A model generated the notes under the pieces. It searched no databases, was not told the DNA's origin, and saw nothing but the letters and a program-made list of their open reading frames with translations. Shown here in pieces: positions 3,235 to 16,765 of a stretch of 17,416 nt of DNA; within the stretch, counting starts at the first letter, position 1; every line of letters begins with the position of its first letter. The position numbers and the translations under genes were made by a program. Source of the stretch: an uncultured Bacilli bacterium (GTDB lineage: Bacteria; Bacillota_I; Bacilli_A; RF39; UBA660); contig CALVVD010000131.1 in the NCBI GenBank assembly GCA_944363745.1, positions 1 to 17,416 of the forward strand, in the 5' to 3' direction.

Positions 3235-6202
3235 GGGAAAAGAATACAGCCTTGCAGTGAAGATCGCCGGTTCTGTCGCCTCCTCCTTCAACAGCGCCAT
3301 GGGGGCCGCAGAGAACCGGATCAGCGGCCTCGGCCAAATCGCAAAGCAGGCGGCAGCAATCGCGTCCGCAGCCTGGGGGGCGCTGAAGATTGGGGAATTC
3401 GTGACGGACTCCGTCCAGGCGGCGGTGGACTTCGAGAGCGCCATGGCCGACGTCGCAAAGGTCGTGGACGGCCTGCGGGATGAAAACGGAAACCTCACTG
3501 ACACCTACTACGCCATGTCGGACTCCATCGTCCAAATGTCGAAGAACATCCCCATGGCAGCAGAGGATCTGGCGGCGATCACCGCATCCGCAGGCACCGC
3601 AGGCATCGCCGCAGAGGAACTCACCACATTTACAGAGACCGCCGCCAAGATGGGCGTGGCCTTTGACACCACCGCCGAACAGGCGGGTGACTGGATGGCC
3701 AAGTGGCGTACCTCCTTTACCATGAGCCAGGAGGAAGTCACGGCTCTCGCAGACCAAATCAACTACCTATCGAACAACAGCGCATCCACAGCCTCGGAGA
3801 TTTCCACCATCGTGACAGCAGTGGGGCCGCTGGGCGACGTGGCAGGCATCTCAGCCGCCCAGATCGCCGCCCTCGGCTCCACCATGGTAGGCGTAGGCGT
3901 CCAGCAGGACGTGGCGGCAACCGGCATTAGAAAGCTGGCCACCACCATGGTGGCCGGATCTTCGGCCACAAAAGCGCAGGCCACCGTGCTTCAGCAGCTG
4001 GGCCTGGATGCCACAGAGATGGCGCAGCGGATGCAGACCGACGCGGAGGGGGCCATCCTCACCTTCCTGGAGGCAGTCAGCAAGCTGCCGGAGGCGGAGC
4101 AGGCCGCCGCCCTGAAAAACTACTTCGGCCAGGAATCCGTCGGGGCCATCGCCCCGCTCCTGACCAACCTCGACGTGCTGCGGGAGCGGTTCGAGATGGT
4201 GGCAGACGCCCAGCTCTATGCCGGGAGCATGGATGCAGAGTACGCCGCCAGAGCCGCCACCACCGCGAACAACATCCAGCTCTACGAAAACCGGATCGCC
4301 GCCCTGAAAATCCAGATCGGCAACTACCTACTGCCCGTGGTGAACAAGGTGCTGGGCGCAGCCTCCACCGGACTGGACTGGCTCAGCGACAAGATAGCCT
4401 CCGCAGAGGGAACGGTCTCCGGCTTCATCGGAACGGTGCAGAGCAAGGCGCTGGCAATCTTCACGATGATCCGGCCAAAGCTGGAATCCATCGGCGTAAA
4501 GGCGCAGGAGATATTCACCGTCCTTTCCGGGCAGCTGACCGCCGCCTTCGAGGCGGTGCAGCCCACACTCAACTGGATCATCGACACGGCGCTTCCCACG
4601 GCAATCAGCGCCGTCCTGGATCTGGTGGACGCCTTCGGCTCGGTCGTCATCACCGCCCTGGAGTTCAAAGAGGTGCTGATCGCAGCGGCTGCGGTCTACG
4701 GAGCATTCAAGGCCGGGAAAGCCCTGCAGAGCATGATTCAGGGATTCCAGCAGGCCAAGGTGACGCTGGCGCTCTTCAAGGCCAGCGCCCAGGGGGCCAC
4801 CATCGCACAGGCGGCATTCAACGGGACGCTGACCCTCGGAGAAACGCTGACCGCCCTATTCACAGGGCAGGTGACGCTGGCGCAGCTGGCCCAGGCAGGA
4901 TGGGCCACCGTGACCGGAGCGGTGACAAAGGCATTCGGAGCCTTGAACGCCGTTCTCATGGCAAACCCCATCGTTTTGATCGTGACGGCCATCGCCGCCG
5001 TGATCGCCATCCTGGTAGTCCTCTACACAAAATGCGAGGGCTTCCGCAACTTCGTTAATTCGGTGGCCAGTGCCATCGTCGGCTTCGTGAAGAACGCAGC
5101 CTCGGCCATCGCCGGATTTTTCAAAAACCTCTGGGCCACCATCCAGGGCATCTGGTCGGCAGTCTCCGGCTGGTTTAAGAGCAAGGTGATCGACCCGCTG
5201 GTAAACTTTTTCGCTCCCATCGTTCAGTGGATCAGCGGCTTCTTCCAGGGCTGCTGGATCATCATCCAGGCTGTCTGGGCGGCGGTCTCCGGCTGGTTCA
5301 AGACCAACGTCATCGACCCCGTGGTGAACTTCTTCACCCCCATCCCCGGCATCATCGGTGGATTTTTCTCCGGCCTTTGGACTTCCATCCAGAGCATCTG
5401 GGCGACCGTCTCCGGCTGGTTCAACCTCAACGTGATCCAGCCCCTGGTGAACTTCTTCGCCCCCATCGTCGAGAGCATCGGCGGATTTTTCGCAAACCTC
5501 TGGGCCTCCATCTGCAGCATTTGGCAGGCCGCAGGAACCTGGTTCTCCGAGAACGTGACCACCCCCATCAACAACGCCTTCCAGGCCATCGGTGACTTCG
5601 TGAAGGGAATCTTCAACGGCCTGATCGGCTTGGTGGAGGGCATGATCAACCGGATCATCGGGGCCGTCAACGGCTTCATCGGCGGCTTTAACGACGTGGT
5701 CGGCTGGGGCGCATCCTTCATCGGCGTCGATTGGGAGGGCCTTGCAACGATCCCGGAGGTATCCCTCCCCCGGCTGGCCAAGGGCGGCATCGTGGACAGC
5801 CCCACCATCCTGGAGGCAGGCGAAGCCGGAACCGAGGCCATCGTCCCCCTCTCCGAGCTATGGGGCAAGATGCAGAGCATGATCTCCGGCCCCGTCGGAT
5901 ACATGGCCGACAGGGTGTCCGCCCTGGCCGACCGGATGGAAGCCATGGAAATTGGTTCCACCGCCACCCCCATCTCCGAACTGCTGGCCAAGCTGCAGGA
6001 ACTCGGACGCGGCGGCGACCCCGACCCGGATGACCCGGAGGGCGGAGGGCCGGTCTACCACATCACCTACGCCCCGCAGTACTGCTTCGAGGGCGGAGCG
6101 CCCAGCAGGGAGGACATGACCGACGCAGAGCATATCTCCCAGGAGGAATTCGAGCGCCGGATGAATCAGTGGATGAAGGACAACGCAAGAAAGAGGTTCT
6201 AA
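3218..6202 (+). CDS. tail tape measure protein (P2 T-like role)
   Basis: The product has 994 residues and sets tail length as a scaffold inside the tube. It starts at GTG 3218, with AAGGAGG nine bases upstream, inside the end of the chaperone extension. The N-terminal ~350 residues have the Ala/Thr-rich helical character of the TP901-type core (VDFESAMADVAKVVDG, then many Ala/Glu helices). A hydrophobic segment lies at about residues 581-610, around MANPIVLIVTAIAAVIA, as in many tape measures. Residues 633-796 hold four tandem 41-residue Trp-rich repeats. Near residue 856 is the familiar GGIVDSPTILEAGEAGTEA motif, followed by a polar C-terminus (to MKDNARKRF). The coupling with the chaperone gene supports the assignment. 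Confidence 0.95.
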   Translation: MASASRGKEYSLAVKIAGSVASSFNSAMGAAENRISGLGQIAKQAAAIASAAWGALKIGEFVTDSVQAAVDFESAMADVAKVVDGLRDENGNLTDTYYAMSDSIVQMSKNIPMAAEDLAAITASAGTAGIAAEELTTFTETAAKMGVAFDTTAEQAGDWMAKWRTSFTMSQEEVTALADQINYLSNNSASTASEISTIVTAVGPLGDVAGISAAQIAALGSTMVGVGVQQDVAATGIRKLATTMVAGSSATKAQATVLQQLGLDATEMAQRMQTDAEGAILTFLEAVSKLPEAEQAAALKNYFGQESVGAIAPLLTNLDVLRERFEMVADAQLYAGSMDAEYAARAATTANNIQLYENRIAALKIQIGNYLLPVVNKVLGAASTGLDWLSDKIASAEGTVSGFIGTVQSKALAIFTMIRPKLESIGVKAQEIFTVLSGQLTAAFEAVQPTLNWIIDTALPTAISAVLDLVDAFGSVVITALEFKEVLIAAAAVYGAFKAGKALQSMIQGFQQAKVTLALFKASAQGATIAQAAFNGTLTLGETLTALFTGQVTLAQLAQAGWATVTGAVTKAFGALNAVLMANPIVLIVTAIAAVIAILVVLYTKCEGFRNFVNSVASAIVGFVKNAASAIAGFFKNLWATIQGIWSAVSGWFKSKVIDPLVNFFAPIVQWISGFFQGCWIIIQAVWAAVSGWFKTNVIDPVVNFFTPIPGIIGGFFSGLWTSIQSIWATVSGWFNLNVIQPLVNFFAPIVESIGGFFANLWASICSIWQAAGTWFSENVTTPINNAFQAIGDFVKGIFNGLIGLVEGMINRIIGAVNGFIGGFNDVVGWGASFIGVDWEGLATIPEVSLPRLAKGGIVDSPTILEAGEAGTEAIVPLSELWGKMQSMISGPVGYMADRVSALADRMEAMEIGSTATPISELLAKLQELGRGGDPDPDDPEGGGPVYHITYAPQYCFEGGAPSREDMTDAEHISQEEFERRMNQWMKDNARKRF
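5114..5605 (+). repeat. four 123-base tandem repeats inside the tape measure gene
   Basis: Four adjacent units of 41 codons begin at 5114, 5237, 5360 and 5483. Each starts GFF, continues with a Trp-x3-Ile(Val)-x3-Trp spacing, then SGWF (GTWF in the last), then V-I-x-P-x-V-N-F-F. Units 1 to 3 are close to one another, whereas unit 4 is more diverged (TTPINNAFQ in place of the NFF block). The repeat length is a whole number of codons, so gain or loss of units would keep the frame and could change tail length. Confidence 0.88.
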
Positions 6203-6205
6203 GCC

Positions 6206-6418
6206 ATGGACACCATCATCACCATCCAGGGCGACACCTGGGACACCATCGCCCGCAGAGCCTACGGGGACGAGAAAGCCGCCCAGGCGCTCATGGAGGC
6301 CAGGGAAAACATCCGCCTATTGGACTATCAGATATTCCCCGGCGGCGTCCATGTGGCCGTGCCGGTCTTGCCGGAGGAAACGCAGCAGGACAGCGGCCTC
6401 CCGGAATGGAGGCGATGA
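6206..6418 (+). CDS. tail protein X-like, small LysM-type protein
   Basis: The product has 70 residues and begins MDTIITIQGDTWDTIARRAYG, the strand-loop-helix start typical of P2 X and related LysM-like tail proteins, with the usual GDTWD..A.R.YG pattern. Such small proteins act in the baseplate or hub and may contact peptidoglycan. AAGAGG lies nine bases before the ATG, and the tape measure stop is four bases upstream. The gene sits between the tape measure and hub genes, where X-like genes are common in clostridial myophages. The C-terminus is short and charged (LPEWRR). No alternative is favoured. Confidence 0.88.
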   Translation: MDTIITIQGDTWDTIARRAYGDEKAAQALMEARENIRLLDYQIFPGGVHVAVPVLPEETQQDSGLPEWRR

Positions 6419-6421
6419 GCT

Positions 6422-7453
6422 ATGGAACCGCGCAAGGCAACTGTGGCCCTGACCTACAACGGGGCCAACGCCACGGAATCCATCGTCCCAGACCTTTCCT
6501 CCTTCAGCTACATTGACGTGGCCAGCGGAAGCAGCGACAGCATCAGCGTGGAGCTGACCGACCGGGGCCGTCGCTGGATCGGCCCATGGTTCCCCGTCAA
6601 AGGGGACACGCTCAAGCCGGTCATTCAGACCCGGAACTGGAACGGCGACGGGCAGATCCAGGCCTTCGCCTGCGGCACCTTCCAGGTGGACGATTTCAGC
6701 TTCAGCGGGGGGCCACCCATCCGGCTCAGCCTGGAGGGGCTGGCCCTCCCCGCAGACAGCAGCTTCAAGACCACCCAGCGCACCCTCACCTATGAGGACG
6801 CCACGCTTCAGGAGATTGGCCAGGAGATCGCAGGCCGTGCCGGTATCGCCCTGTTTTACGAAGCGGACACCATCAGCATCAAGCGCATCGAGCAGACCAA
6901 CCAGTCGGACTGCGAGTTTTACAACAAGCTGGTCACAGACTACGGCCTGGTGCTGAAGATTTACGACAACCGGCTGGTGGTATTTTCAGAGGCCCAGTAC
7001 GAGGCCAAGGCGGCGAAGCTGACGCTGACGGAGGCGGACTTTGAACCCGGCTGGTCTTGGGACACCACTCTGGAGGGCACCTACACCGGCATCAAGTACC
7101 AGTACACCAACGCGGATCAGAACAAGACCTTCACGGTCGAGGCAGGCGGAGGCAACCGCATCAAGACCAGCAACACCGCCGCCGATAACCTATCGGAGGC
7201 CATCACCATCGCCCTGGCGGAGCTGAACACCGCCAATAAGGGCACCACCACCATGAGCATCACGCTCAAGGCCCAGCTCGGCCTGATCGCCAGCGACTGC
7301 GTGGAGATCAAGGGCCTGCAGAAGCTGGACGGCAAGTATTACATCGAGAAGATCACCCACAGCATCGGCAGCGGCTACAAAATGACCCTGGAGATGCGCC
7401 GGGTGGAGGAACGGATCACCACCGTGACCGTGGCAAAAGAGAGCGCCGCATAG
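6422..7453 (+). CDS. tail hub protein D-like (late control gpD family)
   Basis: The product has 343 residues, the usual length for P2 D. These proteins form the hub trimer between the tube and the spike. The N-terminus builds a strand-rich domain (VALTYNGANAT, then SISVELTDRGRRWIGPWFP), where the DRxRxW pattern is typical of this family in Firmicutes phages. The middle has LTYEDATLQEIGQEIAGRAG, the helix common to gpD proteins, and the C-terminus closes with YYIEKITHSIGSGYKMTLEMRR, the family's final strand pair. GGAGG lies nine bases before the ATG. The spike gene follows directly, as expected for its partner. Confidence 0.92.
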   Translation: MEPRKATVALTYNGANATESIVPDLSSFSYIDVASGSSDSISVELTDRGRRWIGPWFPVKGDTLKPVIQTRNWNGDGQIQAFACGTFQVDDFSFSGGPPIRLSLEGLALPADSSFKTTQRTLTYEDATLQEIGQEIAGRAGIALFYEADTISIKRIEQTNQSDCEFYNKLVTDYGLVLKIYDNRLVVFSEAQYEAKAAKLTLTEADFEPGWSWDTTLEGTYTGIKYQYTNADQNKTFTVEAGGGNRIKTSNTAADNLSEAITIALAELNTANKGTTTMSITLKAQLGLIASDCVEIKGLQKLDGKYYIEKITHSIGSGYKMTLEMRRVEERITTVTVAKESAA

Positions 7454-11438: not shown

Positions 11439-13265
11439 ATGGGATACGGCCCCGTAAACGCCCCCAGCTCCGGCGGCAGCAGCGAGGAACTGGAGGCCGT
11501 CCGCAAACTGGCTCAAGGGGCGGCAGACACCGCAGATGCCGCAAAGAACACCGCTGACACCGCAAAGGCCACTGCCGATGCCGCCCTGGAGGCCGCGAAT
11601 GCAGCCAGAGGCGTAGCCAACACCGCAAAGAGCACTGCCGATCAGGCCCTGGCACTTGCTGGTACCGCCAAGGACACCGCCGATACGGCCAAGGCCACCG
11701 CCGATCAGGCCCTGGAGACGGCCAACACGGCCAAAGCCACTGCCGACGCTGCAGCGTCCGCCGCCGCAAAGGCCCAGCAAACCGCAGACGAAGCGGCCCA
11801 GAGCATCAAGGACATCACCAATACGATCAGCTCCACGCCGTCTCAGAACGGCTCCCTGGTATACAACGCCAGCGTCCAGTCACCCACCTGGAACAGCTAT
11901 AACCCGGAGCAGCTCACCCTGGGCGGCGTGACAGAGGGCACCAACGCCGGAGAGTATGAGGCGACCTTTACCCCGAAGGGCGACTACGTCTGGAGCGACG
12001 GCACCCAGGATGCCCGGACGGTTACCTGGACGATCAAGCGGAAGACCGTCCAGCTTCCCGCACAGAGTGGAAGCCTCACCTACACCGGCAGCGCCCAGTC
12101 GCCCACCTGGGATAATTACAGCGCCGTGGAGCTGGACATGGGCGGCACCACCAGCGGCACCAACGCTGGGAGCTACCAGGCCACCTTCACGCCCACAAGC
12201 AACTTCCAGTGGAGCGACGGCACCTACGGAGCCAAGAACGCCACCTGGAGCATCGCAAAGGCGGCAGGCTCCCTGTCCATCAATCCCACCACGATGACGC
12301 TGGACGTATCGACCCTTCAGAAAACCATCGCGGTCACCAGGGCCGGAAACGGCGTGATCTCCGTGTCGGTGGACAACACGGCCATCGCGGAGGCCAGCCT
12401 CTCCGGCACTACCATCACCGTCACCGGAAAGGCCAAGGGCACCGCGAAGATCACGGTCTCCGTCGCCGCCGGTACCAACCACACCGCTCCGGCCAGCGCG
12501 GTCTGCACCGCAACCGTCAGCCTGCCCAGCAAAACGCTGGCCGACAATGACCCGGCCACCATCCAGGCCGTGGGCGCAGCAGGCACCGGGGCCAGCTACT
12601 GGGCGGTGGGCGACAAGATCGGCATCGCCGTCAACGGCACCTTCGGAGGCCTCACGCTGAACCAGACGGTCTACGCCTTCATCCTGGGCTTCAATCACAA
12701 CCAGAGCGTGGAGGGCAACGGCATCGACTTCCAGTTCGGAAAGACGGCGGATGGCAGAGACATCGCCTTTGTGCAGAGCTACGGCAGCACCGGCAGCGGC
12801 TTCTGCATGAACACATCGAACACCAACTCCGGCGGGTGGAAGAACAGCTACATGATGAAGACCATCTGCCCCGCCTTCCTCAACGCCCTCCCGGCGGCAT
12901 GGCGGAACGCCATCAAGAACTGCACCAAGTACAGCGACAACACCGGCGGCGGAAACGACACGGCCAGCTACGTCACAGCGACCACCCAGAAGATCTTCCT
13001 ACTGGCGGAGTTCGAGGTACACGGCACCCGCTACTACGCCAACAGCGCGGAGAAGAACTATCAGAAGCAGTACGACTACTACAAAAACGGCAACAGCAAG
13101 GTCAAGTACCAGCACAGCAGCACCGGCTCCGCCTGCATTTGGTGGCTGCGCTCGGTCCGTGCGGGCGCCGCGACGCGCTTCTGCAGTGTGTACACAGGCG
13201 GGAGCGCGAGCAGCACCGGCGCCTCCGGTTCGTATGGCTTCGCGCCGGGCTTTAAGGCCGCCTAA
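11439..13265 (+). CDS. DGR target: variable receptor-binding tail fibre protein
   Basis: The product has 608 residues and is the likely host-binding protein whose end is rewritten by the DGR. Residues ~17-130 form an Ala/Thr-rich heptad region with repeats of the TADTAKATADQAL type, probably a trimeric coiled coil. Residues ~137-282 are two strand-rich repeats of 73-residue period (GTNAG, then ATFTP, then WSDGT in each). Residues ~283-362 look like a Big_2-type Ig domain (LSINPTTMTLDVSTLQ). From ~363 on is a Gly/Asn-rich domain with Trp and Cys residues, then CIWWLRSV (566-573) and GFAPGF before the end, the pattern of C-type-lectin folds used by DGR targets (DUF6273-like). VR covers residues 562-606. 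AAGGAGG lies eight bases before the ATG. Confidence 0.93.
   Translation: MGYGPVNAPSSGGSSEELEAVRKLAQGAADTADAAKNTADTAKATADAALEAANAARGVANTAKSTADQALALAGTAKDTADTAKATADQALETANTAKATADAAASAAAKAQQTADEAAQSIKDITNTISSTPSQNGSLVYNASVQSPTWNSYNPEQLTLGGVTEGTNAGEYEATFTPKGDYVWSDGTQDARTVTWTIKRKTVQLPAQSGSLTYTGSAQSPTWDNYSAVELDMGGTTSGTNAGSYQATFTPTSNFQWSDGTYGAKNATWSIAKAAGSLSINPTTMTLDVSTLQKTIAVTRAGNGVISVSVDNTAIAEASLSGTTITVTGKAKGTAKITVSVAAGTNHTAPASAVCTATVSLPSKTLADNDPATIQAVGAAGTGASYWAVGDKIGIAVNGTFGGLTLNQTVYAFILGFNHNQSVEGNGIDFQFGKTADGRDIAFVQSYGSTGSGFCMNTSNTNSGGWKNSYMMKTICPAFLNALPAAWRNAIKNCTKYSDNTGGGNDTASYVTATTQKIFLLAEFEVHGTRYYANSAEKNYQKQYDYYKNGNSKVKYQHSSTGSACIWWLRSVRAGAATRFCSVYTGGSASSTGASGSYGFAPGFKAA
11847..12284 (+). 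repeat. two 219-base repeats in the fibre gene
   Basis: Two adjacent 73-codon units start at residues 137 and 210 (bases 11847 and 12066). Both share GSL.Y...QSPTW, then GTNAG.Y.ATFTP and WSDGT, and end in a W.I strand. The units are related to MBG/YDG-type bacterial Ig-like repeats. They differ at many codons, so the duplication is not recent. Confidence 0.8.
13124..13256 (+). repeat. DGR variable repeat (VR)
   Basis: This 133-base segment at the 3' end of the fibre gene aligns without gaps to the template repeat at 13915-14047 (offset 791). It differs at 22 positions, and in every case the template base is A: 13 became G, 6 C and 3 T. All template C, G and T positions are conserved. The changes alter 16 residues and leave one glycine codon silent. 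The 3' part (TTCGCGCCGGG) is identical in both repeats and fits the initiation-of-mutagenic-homing site. Confidence 0.98.
13240..13256 (+). promoter_or_regulatory. probable initiation of mutagenic homing (IMH) site
   Basis: The 3' end of VR is GC-rich and contains no adenine in its first ten bases (TTCGCGCCGGG region). In known DGRs this GC-rich end marks the target as recipient and begins cDNA integration. VR has C at 13250 where TR has A at 14041, a difference that may distinguish IMH from its template counterpart. The exact borders are inferred. Confidence 0.7.
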
Positions 13266-13291
13266 TCCAAAAATCCGACACCCAGTGAAGC

Positions 13292-13313
13292 GGTGGGGGC
13301 GAAAGCCCCCGCC
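13292..13313 (+). promoter_or_regulatory. DGR target hairpin with GAAA loop
   Basis: GGGGGC (13295-13300) pairs perfectly with GCCCCC (13305-13310) around a GAAA tetraloop. One G-T and two G-C pairs extend the stem to nine pairs (13292-13300 with 13305-13313). It lies about 36 bases downstream of VR. In the Bordetella phage DGR a hairpin or cruciform with a GNRA-like loop downstream of VR promotes retrohoming. No T-run follows the stem, so an intrinsic terminator is unlikely. Confidence 0.8.
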
Positions 13314-13354
13314 AGCGGAACGCAGACCAACGCCAGGGAAAGAGAGATCACGCC

Positions 13355-13891
13355 ATGTCCGTTTACAAATCCCGCCGGAAGGACGCATCCGCCCAGTTCA
13401 TCGCAGACGCCAGGGAACTGCGCCGGATGACCGCCAGGGCCGTGAAGCGGTTCCCCAGCAGCTACCGGTACATCGTGACCAACGGCCTGCTGGAGATGGC
13501 CAGGGAGATCGTGGTCAACGCCGTGAAGGGCAACGCCGTGTACCTGCACAAAGACCTCTCGCAAGGGGACTTCGACCTGCGGCACCGGTACCTGAAGATG
13601 GCGGAAGTGACCGCAGACGCATACCTGGAGGAAATCACCTTTGCCTTCTCCCTTGTGGATGACGGGAACAGCTTCTTCAAGAACAAGGCAGAATACCAGA
13701 AGGTCTTCAACGGCCTCACGTCCCAGGGCAACACCGTCCTGAAGCGGCTGCGGAAGGTGATCGACTCGGACAAGGATCGCTGGCGGCGGTACCAGAAGGA
13801 AAAGGCTGAGGCCACGCCGAAGCCTCCACCCAAGGCCACCGGCGGAGGGCAGCACACGCCGCCCCCGCCGCCCTGGCCACCCAACGCATAA
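13355..13891 (+). CDS. avd: DGR accessory variability determinant (Avd-like)
   Basis: The product has 178 residues. About 145 are strongly helical and basic (ARELRRMTARAVKRFPSSYRY near the start, later ITFAFSLVDDGNSFFKNKAEY and KRLRKVIDSDKDRW). This fits the four-helix-bundle Avd family, which forms a pentamer, binds the template RNA and is needed for cDNA synthesis with the reverse transcriptase. The last ~27 residues are Pro/Gly-rich (QHTPPPPPWPPNA) and look disordered, which is an unusual addition. The ATG at 13355 has only a weak purine-rich ribosome binding site (AGAGAG). The gene lies between VR and TR, and its stop is 24 bases before TR, the same order as in the Bordetella phage DGR. 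Confidence 0.92.
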   Translation: MSVYKSRRKDASAQFIADARELRRMTARAVKRFPSSYRYIVTNGLLEMAREIVVNAVKGNAVYLHKDLSQGDFDLRHRYLKMAEVTADAYLEEITFAFSLVDDGNSFFKNKAEYQKVFNGLTSQGNTVLKRLRKVIDSDKDRWRRYQKEKAEATPKPPPKATGGGQHTPPPPPWPPNA

Positions 13892-14372
13892 ATCCCCATT
13901 AGGGCAAGCTCTGACGGCTCCGCCTGCAATTGGTGGCTGCGCTCGGTCAATGCGAGCAACACGACGAACTTCTGCAATGTGAACACAGACGGGAGCGCGA
14001 ACAACAACAACGCCTACAATTCGAATGGCTTCGCGCCGGGATTTAAGAAAACGTTACTGGGGCCAGAAATAGTAGCCAACGGCGAACCCGTGCCCCAAAA
14101 CTTAAAGGAGAGCTTGCACCTTGGAGCCTGACCCAGACAGCTGGGCTTCATTCCTAAAATCGCCCCACGACACGATCCGCCCGGACGCTGCTTGCATGGC
14201 CGGGGAGTTTGATGGGCACCAAACCGCAGCTTCAGACCGGAGCGGCGGGACGGGCCTCCCCGGTTTCATTGGCGGACGTTACGCAGCTGCGCTGAAAAAC
14301 CACCCCCAATGACGGGACAGGTGCCGGAAGCGACGCACCCGGCAAACCACCCGCTGGAGGGGCCGTCTGTGC
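13892..14372 (+). ncRNA. DGR template RNA region (TR plus downstream spacer)
   Basis: No credible gene lies in these 481 bases. They contain the template repeat and a 325-base spacer leading to the reverse transcriptase gene. In studied DGRs the template RNA spans the end of avd, TR and part of the spacer, and the spacer structure primes cDNA synthesis. Visible pairings are a hairpin CCCAG/CTGGG with loop ACAG (14132-14145), CCGGGGAG (14200-14207) with CTCCCCGG (14256-14263), GTTTG (14207-14211) with CAAAC (14220-14224), and longer-range GGCACC (14215-14220) with GGTGCC (14320-14325). The RNA ends are not known. Confidence 0.75.
13915..14047 (+). repeat. DGR template repeat (TR)
   Basis: This 133-base non-coding copy matches VR without gaps. 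About 35 of its bases are A. Read in the VR frame it gives 12 asparagine codons of the AAY type (AAC or AAT), all of which are changed in VR. AAY codons are typical of DGR templates because randomising both adenines can give many residues but no stop codon. The region is not translated and begins 24 bases after the avd stop. Confidence 0.98.
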
Positions 14373-15665
14373 GTGGGGGCTGCGTCAGACCTAAACAGAG
14401 AGGGGACAGCCCCTTTGACAAGTGAAGAACGGCGGGAGGCCCGCTACCAGCGTCGAAAGGCAAAACGGGAGGCAAAGGCCCTGGAGACCACCGGGAAGAC
14501 CTTCGACGAGGTGATCAACTTCGGAAACATGGTGGAGGCCGGAAGGAAGTGCTGCGACGGTTCCCGCTGGAAGACCTCGACGATTCTATTTGAAACGCAC
14601 CTGCTGCCGGAGTGCGCTGACATCGTGGAGACCCTCGCCGGAGAGAAGCGGCGGTTCAAGGGCTTTCACAGCTTCACCACCGTGGAGCACGGCAAGGCTC
14701 GTCAGATCGACGCCCTGCCTATCCAGGAGAGGGCGGGGCAGAAATGCCTGTGCCAGAACTACCTGACCAAAGCCTTCTCCCGGAGCTTCATCTCCACCAA
14801 CAGCGCCAGCCTGGAGGGCAGGGGCATGGACTATGCCCTGGAGACCCTGCACCAGCAGCTCACCCGCCACTTCCACCGGTACGGCCTGGAGGGCGGCATC
14901 TACCAGTTCGACTTCAAGGGCTACTTCGGGAGCCTGCCCCACGATCTAATCAAGGCCAGGGCCAGACGGGTGATCCGGGACGATAGACTCTACCGGCTCT
15001 ACTGCAGCTACATCGACGATTTTCTGAAGATGAAGACCGCAGACCCAAAGGCGAAGCGGAAACGCGGCGTGGGCCTGGGGAGCGAGGTCTCCCAGATCAC
15101 CGCCCTGGACGCCGCCAGCCCCATCGACCACTACTTCAAAGACCGGCGGCGGGTGGAGGCCTATGGCCGGTACATGGATGACGGCTACGCCATCAGCCCC
15201 TCCCTGGAGGAGCTGCGAGACCTCGACCGCTGCAACCACCTGCTGGCAGCAGACCTGGGCCTCACCCTGAACGACAAGAAATGCACCATCACCCCATTCA
15301 AGCACCACAGCTTCACCTTCCTGAAGGTGCGCTTCACACTGCAGGAGAGCGGCAAGGTCACCATGAAGCTGAGCCGCCAGAGCATCAAGGCCATCCGGCG
15401 GAAGATGGATATCTTCAGGGCCTGGGTGACGGAGGGGCAGATGGACGCCGAAGACGCCATCCAGAGCTACCAGAGCTGGAGGGCGCACGCGAAGCGGTGC
15501 GACAGCTACCGCACCCTTGAGTCCATGGACGCCCGCTTCACGTCCATGTTTGCGCCGGAGCTTCGGCGCAGGAAGAACAAATTCCCCTGCACCCTCCGGG
15601 CCAAGAAGACAAAGGCCGGGTGGGAGTACACCAGAATCACGCAGCAGGCCACCCAGGCCGCATAA
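14373..15665 (+). CDS. DGR reverse transcriptase
   Basis: The product has 430 residues when started at GTG 14373, with GGAGGGG ten bases upstream. A TTG at 14415 with GAGAGGGG nine bases upstream is the alternative and would shorten it by 14 residues. Motif A is QFDFKGYF, with the catalytic Asp at 180. Motif B is GLGSEVSQ (234-241), where the SQ is the mark of DGR enzymes rather than retron or group II intron types. Motif C is GRYMDDGYAI, with Asp 269 and 270. A later FKHHSFTFLKVRF segment fits the thumb-proximal motif. The enzyme copies TR into adenine-mutagenised cDNA that replaces VR. All catalytic residues are present, so it looks active. It lies behind avd and TR. Confidence 0.97.
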   Translation: MGAASDLNREGTAPLTSEERREARYQRRKAKREAKALETTGKTFDEVINFGNMVEAGRKCCDGSRWKTSTILFETHLLPECADIVETLAGEKRRFKGFHSFTTVEHGKARQIDALPIQERAGQKCLCQNYLTKAFSRSFISTNSASLEGRGMDYALETLHQQLTRHFHRYGLEGGIYQFDFKGYFGSLPHDLIKARARRVIRDDRLYRLYCSYIDDFLKMKTADPKAKRKRGVGLGSEVSQITALDAASPIDHYFKDRRRVEAYGRYMDDGYAISPSLEELRDLDRCNHLLAADLGLTLNDKKCTITPFKHHSFTFLKVRFTLQESGKVTMKLSRQSIKAIRRKMDIFRAWVTEGQMDAEDAIQSYQSWRAHAKRCDSYRTLESMDARFTSMFAPELRRRKNKFPCTLRAKKTKAGWEYTRITQQATQAA

Positions 15666-16111: not shown

Positions 16112-16765
16112 ATGTACAAGATCATCAGCGCCGGGAAAATCGTCGCCCTCTGCGACGCCCCCAGGTACGTCACCAGGAACCCGGACACCGGGGCGCTGGT
16201 GGAGACCACTGCGGAGGACGCCATCGGCGTATCCGTGGCCGGGACGCTCTACAACCTGAACGGCGGCAGCGGCATCCCGGACGCACCGGAGGCCGTGGTC
16301 TCCGAGGTGGAGGGCGGCGAGATGGTATTCATCGCCATCTCCCAGGCCGACGCCGTCAGCACCACCAGCGGGATCGCCTTTGTCGCCATGGCGGAGGCCG
16401 GGACGATTGACGGCGTGACTGCCGGAGAACACGCCGACCTCTTCTCTCCGTGGGCCTATCCCGTCAACTACACCGTGGGCCAGATCCGGCGCTACACGGA
16501 CGGGAAGCTGTATAAGTGCCTTCAGGCCCACACGTCGCAGGCGGACTGGACGCCGGACACGGCGGTGAGCCTGTGGGTGAGCATCTCAGACCCGGCGGAG
16601 GAATGGCCGGAGTGGTCTCAGCCCCTGGGAGCGCATGACGCCTACTCCAAGGGGGCAAAGGTGAGCCACAACGGGAAGCACTGGATCAGCGACCTGGACG
16701 CCAACGTCTGGGAGCCTGGGCAGTACGGATGGACGGAAGCCCCGGCGGAGGCCCAGGAGGAATGA
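16112..16765 (+). CDS. tail-associated protein with two carbohydrate-binding-like modules
   Basis: The product has 217 residues. The first ~115 residues are strand-rich and unrecognised (YKIISAGKIVALCDAPRYV at the start). Residues ~120-160 (YTVGQIRRYTDGKLYKCLQA, then ADWTPDTAVSLWV) and ~174-210 (AYSKGAKVSHNGKHWIS, then NVWEPGQYGWTE) are two CBM5/12-like modules with the usual Gly-x2-Val/Ile, x-Tyr/Trp-x-Cys/Ser and Trp-x-Pro spacing. Such modules bind chitin-like or other GlcNAc-containing polymers and in phages may contact the cell wall. AAGGAGG lies eight bases before the ATG. Its stop overlaps the next start (ATGA). It may be a second fibre-associated adhesin. Confidence 0.85.
   Translation: MYKIISAGKIVALCDAPRYVTRNPDTGALVETTAEDAIGVSVAGTLYNLNGGSGIPDAPEAVVSEVEGGEMVFIAISQADAVSTTSGIAFVAMAEAGTIDGVTAGEHADLFSPWAYPVNYTVGQIRRYTDGKLYKCLQAHTSQADWTPDTAVSLWVSISDPAEEWPEWSQPLGAHDAYSKGAKVSHNGKHWISDLDANVWEPGQYGWTEAPAEAQEE

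Follow-up and report, generated by a model that had tools for sequence, protein, structure and literature searches.

The window analysed here, a stretch of 17,416 nucleotides from an uncultured Bacilli bacterium (contig CALVVD010000131.1), contains two near-identical direct repeats, one at the 3' end of a protein-coding gene and the other upstream of a reverse transcriptase (RT) gene, and raises the question of whether these belong to a diversity-generating retroelement (DGR) that is complete and still in use. It was judged very probable that the window carries a complete, functional phage DGR, its activity being argued from comparison of related sequences. The element is of a known type and is a good new example of it, the system itself not being new. 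The cassette was found to span positions 11439 to 15665 of the forward strand, in the order target gene, hairpin, Avd-like gene, template repeat (TR), structured RNA of the Rfam family RT-2 and RT gene. The first-pass annotation of this DNA had placed the element at 13124-14047, which locates the repeats correctly and omits the RT gene, the structured RNA and the start of the target gene. Its proposal of a complete and active DGR was borne out by homologues of the target protein and by sibling contigs, which differ mainly or only at sites of template adenine. The anatomy of the cassette and the occurrence of A-only variation in nature are demonstrated below.

Variable and template repeats

The variable repeat (VR; 13124-13256) lies at the 3' end of the target gene (11439-13265), which encodes a variable protein of 608 amino acids, with the TR (13915-14047) situated between the Avd-like and RT genes. 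The repeats were aligned over 133 bases without gaps and differ at 22 positions, all 22 of which are template adenines. The TR possesses 35 adenines, mostly within AAY codons in the frame of the target, and the chance of 22 differences being confined to 35 adenines among 133 bases is 2e-16. Similarity beyond both limits of the repeats was at background level. The differences comprise 13 A to G, 6 A to C and 3 A to T, resulting in 16 changed residues and one synonymous change (codon 604). Recomputing the alignment reproduced the length, the adenine-only pattern, the substitution counts and the 16 changed residues reported earlier, with the silent change being additional to these.

All 22 differences had been ascribed to mutagenesis, which holds for 21 of them. 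The remaining one, at 13250, where the TR has A at 14041 (GGGATTTAAG) and the VR has C (GGGCTTTAAG), was identified as a fixed boundary difference. When VR/TR pairs preceding related RT genes were screened by a strict rule (A in the TR, C in the VR and at least 10 identical bases before it), 56 of 59, including the pair of the window, carried this difference where their repeats end on the 3' side. Among the three pairs failing this rule, those of loci L012 and L013 show the A/C difference by eye and that of L051 is without it in that alignment. The base was also present in Roseburia phage Shimadzu, as well as in each of the five second, remote VRs that were examined, with the BPP-1 pair being without it. 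As a mutagenised adenine would vary (A, G, T or C) among loci and the C is constant, base 13250 would lie outside the transferred complementary DNA (cDNA). On these comparisons it is the boundary between the IMH* and IMH (initiation of mutagenic homing) sequences and not a product of mutagenesis. The rewritten portion of the VR is thus 13124-13249, in which 21 of the 32 adenines upstream of the boundary have been rewritten (chance of 21 differences falling on 32 adenines, 3e-16). This share of 66% ranks 58 of 65 pairs, for which the median is 48%. The one-base IMH*/IMH marker is nearly constant in the compared loci and should be excluded from counts of adenine substitutions.

Two sets of repeat pairs underlie these comparisons, with duplicate loci (L052, L054-L057, L072) dropped before counting. 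For the 59-pair set, the longest repeat of each locus was taken, having at least 78 bases and at least 4 differences and lying no more than 900 bases ahead of the RT gene. Of 73 distinct loci, 59 yielded such a VR/TR pair, which was purely adenine-specific in 42 of the 59; across the set, template adenines hold 906 of 961 differences. The 65-pair set includes further loci and has the IMH base removed, with L086 and L090 (repeats not VR/TR-like) and gapped pairs excluded. To remove the IMH base, pairs were trimmed at the first A/C difference encountered within their final 30 bases, which shortened a few of them further upstream, so that the totals of 945 mismatches at A, 27 with A in the VR only and 48 others are slightly low. 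In parts of a published survey (PMC8144416), at least 75% of mismatches are reported to lie at A in nearly all DGRs, with signs of recent activity in 50-75%.

The absence of background mutation had also been taken to indicate that the last retrohoming event was recent. This was found to be a weak argument, as 48 of the 65 pairs likewise have zero non-A mismatches and the 94 unchanged non-A sites of the window give a 95% bound on divergence since the last rewriting of approximately 3%. Dating of the last event by this means was dropped, the bound being too loose and zero being common.

Variation among homologues and sibling contigs

Fourteen of the 120 target-protein matches listed were inspected, and the seven homologues among them that are 94-97% identical and have a complete VR were chosen. 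Outside the VR these seven differ from the window protein at 3-10 residues. Within it, differences were found at 12-16 of the 19 positions encoded by a codon containing a template A, compared with none of the 27 other residues. Every one of the 133 residues that the seven homologues have at the 19 A-codon sites is reachable from the window TR by changes of A alone, the mean reachable share of the 20 amino acids being 55% per site, and the VR peptides of the seven homologues and the window are distinct in eight of eight cases. In the more distant homologues P0003, P0005, P0006 and P0008 (75-91%), none of the 27 other VR residues differ, except for two in P0003, and the C-termini of P0004, P0019 and P0023 were not alignable as VR.

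Sibling contigs of related loci showed the same pattern at the nucleotide level. Loci L059 and L060 differ at 20 positions in 11,218 bases, L079 and L080 at 17 in 7,000 bases, and L020 and L088 at 16 over 3,806 matching bases, and in each of these pairs every difference lies in the VR and at a template adenine. L003 and L004 (8,563 bases) possess 15 VR differences, 15 of 15 at template A, together with 27 elsewhere; of the latter, 12 lie at 277-376, 14 lie beyond 8500 near the end of the contig match, and one is a stop in the RT gene of L004. More mixed distributions were seen between L073 and L074 (14 differences in the VR, one in the TR and 24 elsewhere) and between L063 and L068 (19, six and 17, respectively). 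When the window itself was compared to phage sequences, six records were matched in pieces of 60-80% identity covering 4-14%, and no match was found among plasmids.

Reverse transcriptase, structured RNA, hairpin and Avd-like protein

The RT gene (14415-15665, 416 amino acids) was assigned an assumed TTG start, with an alternative upstream GTG start possible at 14373. Its product matched phrog_1423 (Reverse transcriptase, 262 bits) and RVT_1, and its close relatives are annotated RTs of DGR phages. The alignment contains the motifs YMDD and GLGSEVSQ, the latter of which is a signature of DGR RTs. The best PDB relative in a profile search was 8ub7 (E 1.9e-12), presumably the RT of BPP-1. PADLOC returned 17 models for this protein, of which the best was a generic RT model (E 9.8e-15) and the others mostly defence RTs, and every match to NCBIfam was under its cut-off.

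Between the TR and the RT gene, a structured RNA of Rfam family RT-2 (RF03077) was identified at 14061-14381, with a score of 71 bits against a cut-off of 40. In the nearer group, 11 of 11 loci have RT-2 directly 3' of the TR, and of 14 more distant loci 11 have it upstream of the RT (exceptions L012, L013 and L078); it was also found in Shimadzu, L066, L082 and L084. BPP-1 carries the Rfam family Phage_DGR (RF03022) at the corresponding place, and the spacer of that phage is described, in a portion of PMC12875486, as a structure that recruits RT-Avd and primes cDNA. By analogy, RT-2 may serve the same role; this generically named family occupies the position of the BPP-1 DGR spacer RNA. Hammerhead II and twister-sister ribozymes were also seen to flank related loci (L009, 13707-13771; L016, 11564-11652; L020, 14137-14220).

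Downstream of the VR, a 9-bp hairpin with a GAAA loop and one G-T pair was identified at 13292-13313, so that both the IMH/IMH* difference and a hairpin following the VR are present in the window. Hairpins of the GRNA type occur after the VR in 24 of 68 loci, after the TR in none of the 68 and in 12 of 4000 random 80-mers. That of the window is the counterpart of the BPP-1 target hairpin/cruciform, which has a GRNA loop. The distance from VR to hairpin is given as 4-34 bases in a part of PMC3240598, with the 35 bases of the window falling just outside this range.

The Avd-like accessory gene (13355-13891) encodes a protein of 178 amino acids with a four-helix fold, which was aligned to the annotated Avd of Shimadzu with an hhalign value of 96.7%. 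A PDB sequence search with its alignment returned just designed coiled coils and a homeobox chain with weak E-values. No protein labelled Avd was among the best 50 matches of a structural comparison, a result not counted against identity as Avd.

Comparison with known systems and alternative explanations

The Bordetella phage BPP-1 (mtd-avd-TR-brt) shares with the window the order target, avd, TR, structured RNA and RT, a hairpin with a GRNA-type loop after the VR, and A-biased VR/TR differences, recomputed here as 18 of 22 at A. It differs in its RNA family (Phage_DGR compared with RT-2), in an Avd that is not alignable by sequence, and in four non-A differences in its repeat pair, whereas the window has one IMH A/C difference. 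Roseburia phage Shimadzu (LR596903) encodes baseplate J, tail I, a fibre with a VR, an annotated Avd, TR, RT-2 and RT in the same order; the IMH A/C base is shared and the Avd is homologous, with the RT being 37% identical. The closest full-cassette locus found was L008, from an Oscillospiraceae metagenome-assembled genome ('Lapin' isolate, CANQZJ010000012.1), with an RT 85% identical and 16 of 16 VR/TR differences at A, the IMH base included. Unlike the window, L008 possesses a remote DUF4406-DUF6273 gene that carries a second VR; a counterpart of this gene would lie outside the window. The Faecalibacterium prophage DGRs Lelie, CP11, Roos and Pioen are likewise reported, in parts of PMC11792537, to carry the VR at a DUF6273 C-terminus, Lelie and CP11 having one large and one small DUF6273 target; the RTs of the Faecalibacterium phages compared are 28-32% identical to that of the window. 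Two tropic variants of Hankyphage, a Bacteroides phage, are described in a portion of PMC6199706 as differing only in the VR, comparable to L059 and L060 over 11.2 kb, with aligned TRs there being without substitutions, unlike those of some relatives of the window.

Several observations weigh against a complete and active element. The seven homologues are known as proteins only and were compared with the TR of the window, not with their own, and a search of viral_contigs for a nucleotide sibling of the window by its exact TR/spacer pattern gave 0 matches. Loci L068 and L070 have 13 differing sites and an identical VR, and L080, L081 and L082 are mutually identical across 11,218 bases, VR included. 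As regards the Avd-like protein, no sequence match to BPP-1 Avd was found, no Pfam model was reached by the window ORF, and the Pfam bAvd matches seen in two of eight relatives were under the cut-off.

A decayed DGR, with a VR rewritten long ago by machinery that is now dead, was considered very unlikely. Broken members do exist, as the L004 RT gene (6001-7254) has an in-frame stop and the frame is open in the siblings L002 and L003, but the RT, Avd-like gene, RT-2 RNA and TR of the window look intact and the seven close homologues each possess a different VR peptide. Even less probable is a recombination or phase-variation cassette, in which gene conversion between partial copies would take the place of reverse transcription. 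Two near-identical direct copies would suit such a cassette; conversion, however, does not produce A-only changes, the 59-pair survey placed the great majority of differences at template A, and the window has a DGR-type RT, an Avd-like gene and RT-2 RNA in canonical order. An assembly artefact, through merging of reads from different VR variants or from VR and TR, was thought similarly improbable. Joins of VR and TR do occur in assemblies (as in protein P0131, described below), but the independent variants of the seven homologues differ only at A-codon residues, and the 11.2-kb contigs L059 and L060 are otherwise identical with 20 of 20 differences at template A. A complete, functional DGR is hence the reading retained for the window.

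Target protein and proposed mechanism

The N-terminal part of the target protein is alanine-zipper-like and its C-terminal part consists of a DUF6273 domain, with the VR at the C-terminus. A C-type-lectin-like fold was predicted for this domain, with structural matches to lectins and TvpA, among which only 9qa6 was well above background Z; a PDB sequence search with the domain alignment gave no match. Its gene is preceded by tail genes of P2-like type (tube, minor tail protein, gp25, J and I), and tail-fibre PHROG matches cover the N-terminal part, the best PHROG being of unknown function. The protein is thus probably tail-associated; the name of fibre given to it earlier is plausible on the tail genes upstream and the N-terminal matches, and goes further than its best PHROG. 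A gene with a CBM_5_12 carbohydrate-binding module is located downstream of the DGR (16112-16765), perhaps encoding another tail-associated protein. The DUF6273 clusters P0001, P0130 and P0184 list 2322, 1376 and 10526 members, respectively, perhaps a sign of hypervariable targets. N-termini of other kinds, DNA-methylase-like in P0173 (PF00145) and GTPase-like in P0191 (PF01926), were found joined to DUF6273 tails that fit a DGR template, and these could be real fusions or assembly joins.

By analogy with the BPP-1 system, in which the target is a C-type lectin according to a part of PMC4891356, RNA of the TR and of the structured stretch downstream would be copied by the RT with the Avd-like protein, template adenines being misread during copying. 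The cDNA would then take the place of the VR at the 3' terminus of this gene, with the fixed IMH base and the hairpin lying downstream. The outcome would be a C-type-lectin-like tip having 19 residues with a template A in the codon, on a protein whose gene neighbours those for baseplate and tail, presumably for host attachment. The RT/Avd/RNA complex, priming in the spacer, retrohoming and a receptor-binding role are each carried over here from BPP-1.

A possible second, remote target

In the L008 genome, a third copy of the repeat was found approximately 37 kb from the RT gene, in an ORF of 331 amino acids with DUF4406 and DUF6273 that, on a reading of the sequence, appears to adjoin a helicase-like gene. 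This remote VR differs from the L008 TR at 13 positions, 13 of 13 at A with the IMH base included. The DUF4406-DUF6273 protein of L008, used as a query, gave matches in 12 of 23 genomes, and the five with the strongest second-target matches, L008 among them, were followed. A remote DUF6273-type VR was present in all five, with 15 of 15, 22 of 22, 11 of 12 and 11 of 13 differences at A in those besides L008, the IMH base being present in, and counted among, the aligned differences of all five. These second, remote DUF6273-type genes, each with a VR fitting the local TR, are represented by L095 637-1632 (G001:C12:4773-5765), fused to DUF4406 in G001, and by the VRs at L113 5222-5336, L114 5507-5620, L115 5689-5799 and L116 4540-4653. 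In the case of G017 and G021, sequence matching the DUF4406 part was found within 2 kb of the second target.

The ENA-derived protein P0131, from a contig of 4,014 bases, joins a DUF4406-DUF6273 gene in frame to 66 final residues from window positions 13931-14128. These residues are identical to a read-through of most of the window TR and 27 codons beyond, and P0131 is most likely an assembly chimera of a second VR and the TR of the phage lineage of the window. P0130 is identical to P0131 over 227 upstream residues and fits the window TR at 18 of 18 A-codon residues. Of 16 DUF4406-DUF6273-type proteins compared with the window TR, 11 fit at 18 of 18 such residues and five at 17 of 18. The lineage of the window probably has a second target on this evidence. 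That the window DGR itself uses one template for two targets, also rewriting a remote DUF4406-DUF6273 gene in a seemingly early (non-virion) region, was given an even chance. P0130 and P0131 would presumably belong to the phage of the window, and the second target would presumably act inside the cell.

Altered templates in relatives

Between L002 and L003 (8,273 bases), 15 of 17 differing sites lie in the TR and the VRs are identical; all 15 (L002 5552-5627) are A in L003 and non-A in L002. The TR common to loci L068 and L070 departs from the L063 template at six sites, six of six being A in L063, and L069, from a third dataset by its name, has this TR as well. L083 and L084 possess just 16 adenines in the TR core, and 13 of 20 mismatches fall on template bases other than A. 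L071 combines a TR of the L064/L066/L073 type with the VR of L070, and looks like a recombinant with a VR still reflecting the old template. Most non-A mismatches in the 65-pair set stem from the altered-template loci (L002, L068-L070, L083/L084) and L071. Either the machinery occasionally rewrites its own TR, or these assemblies are chimeric; as P0131 points to the existence of VR/TR chimeras among assemblies, template erosion is kept as a lead only. Several TR variants are reported for Treponema denticola in a part of PMC4891356. The adenine-losing templates of some relatives may represent an erosion ratchet.

Significance

With the window, the known DGRs gain one clean and active member, in a phage whose relatives include prophages of Oscillospiraceae and of other gut bacteria. 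The literature searched yielded no paper that connects DUF4406 with DGRs. If the two-target reading is true, this phage diversifies an intracellular, enzyme-like protein besides its tail, and second targets fused to DUF4406 would carry diversification by DGRs beyond attachment proteins.

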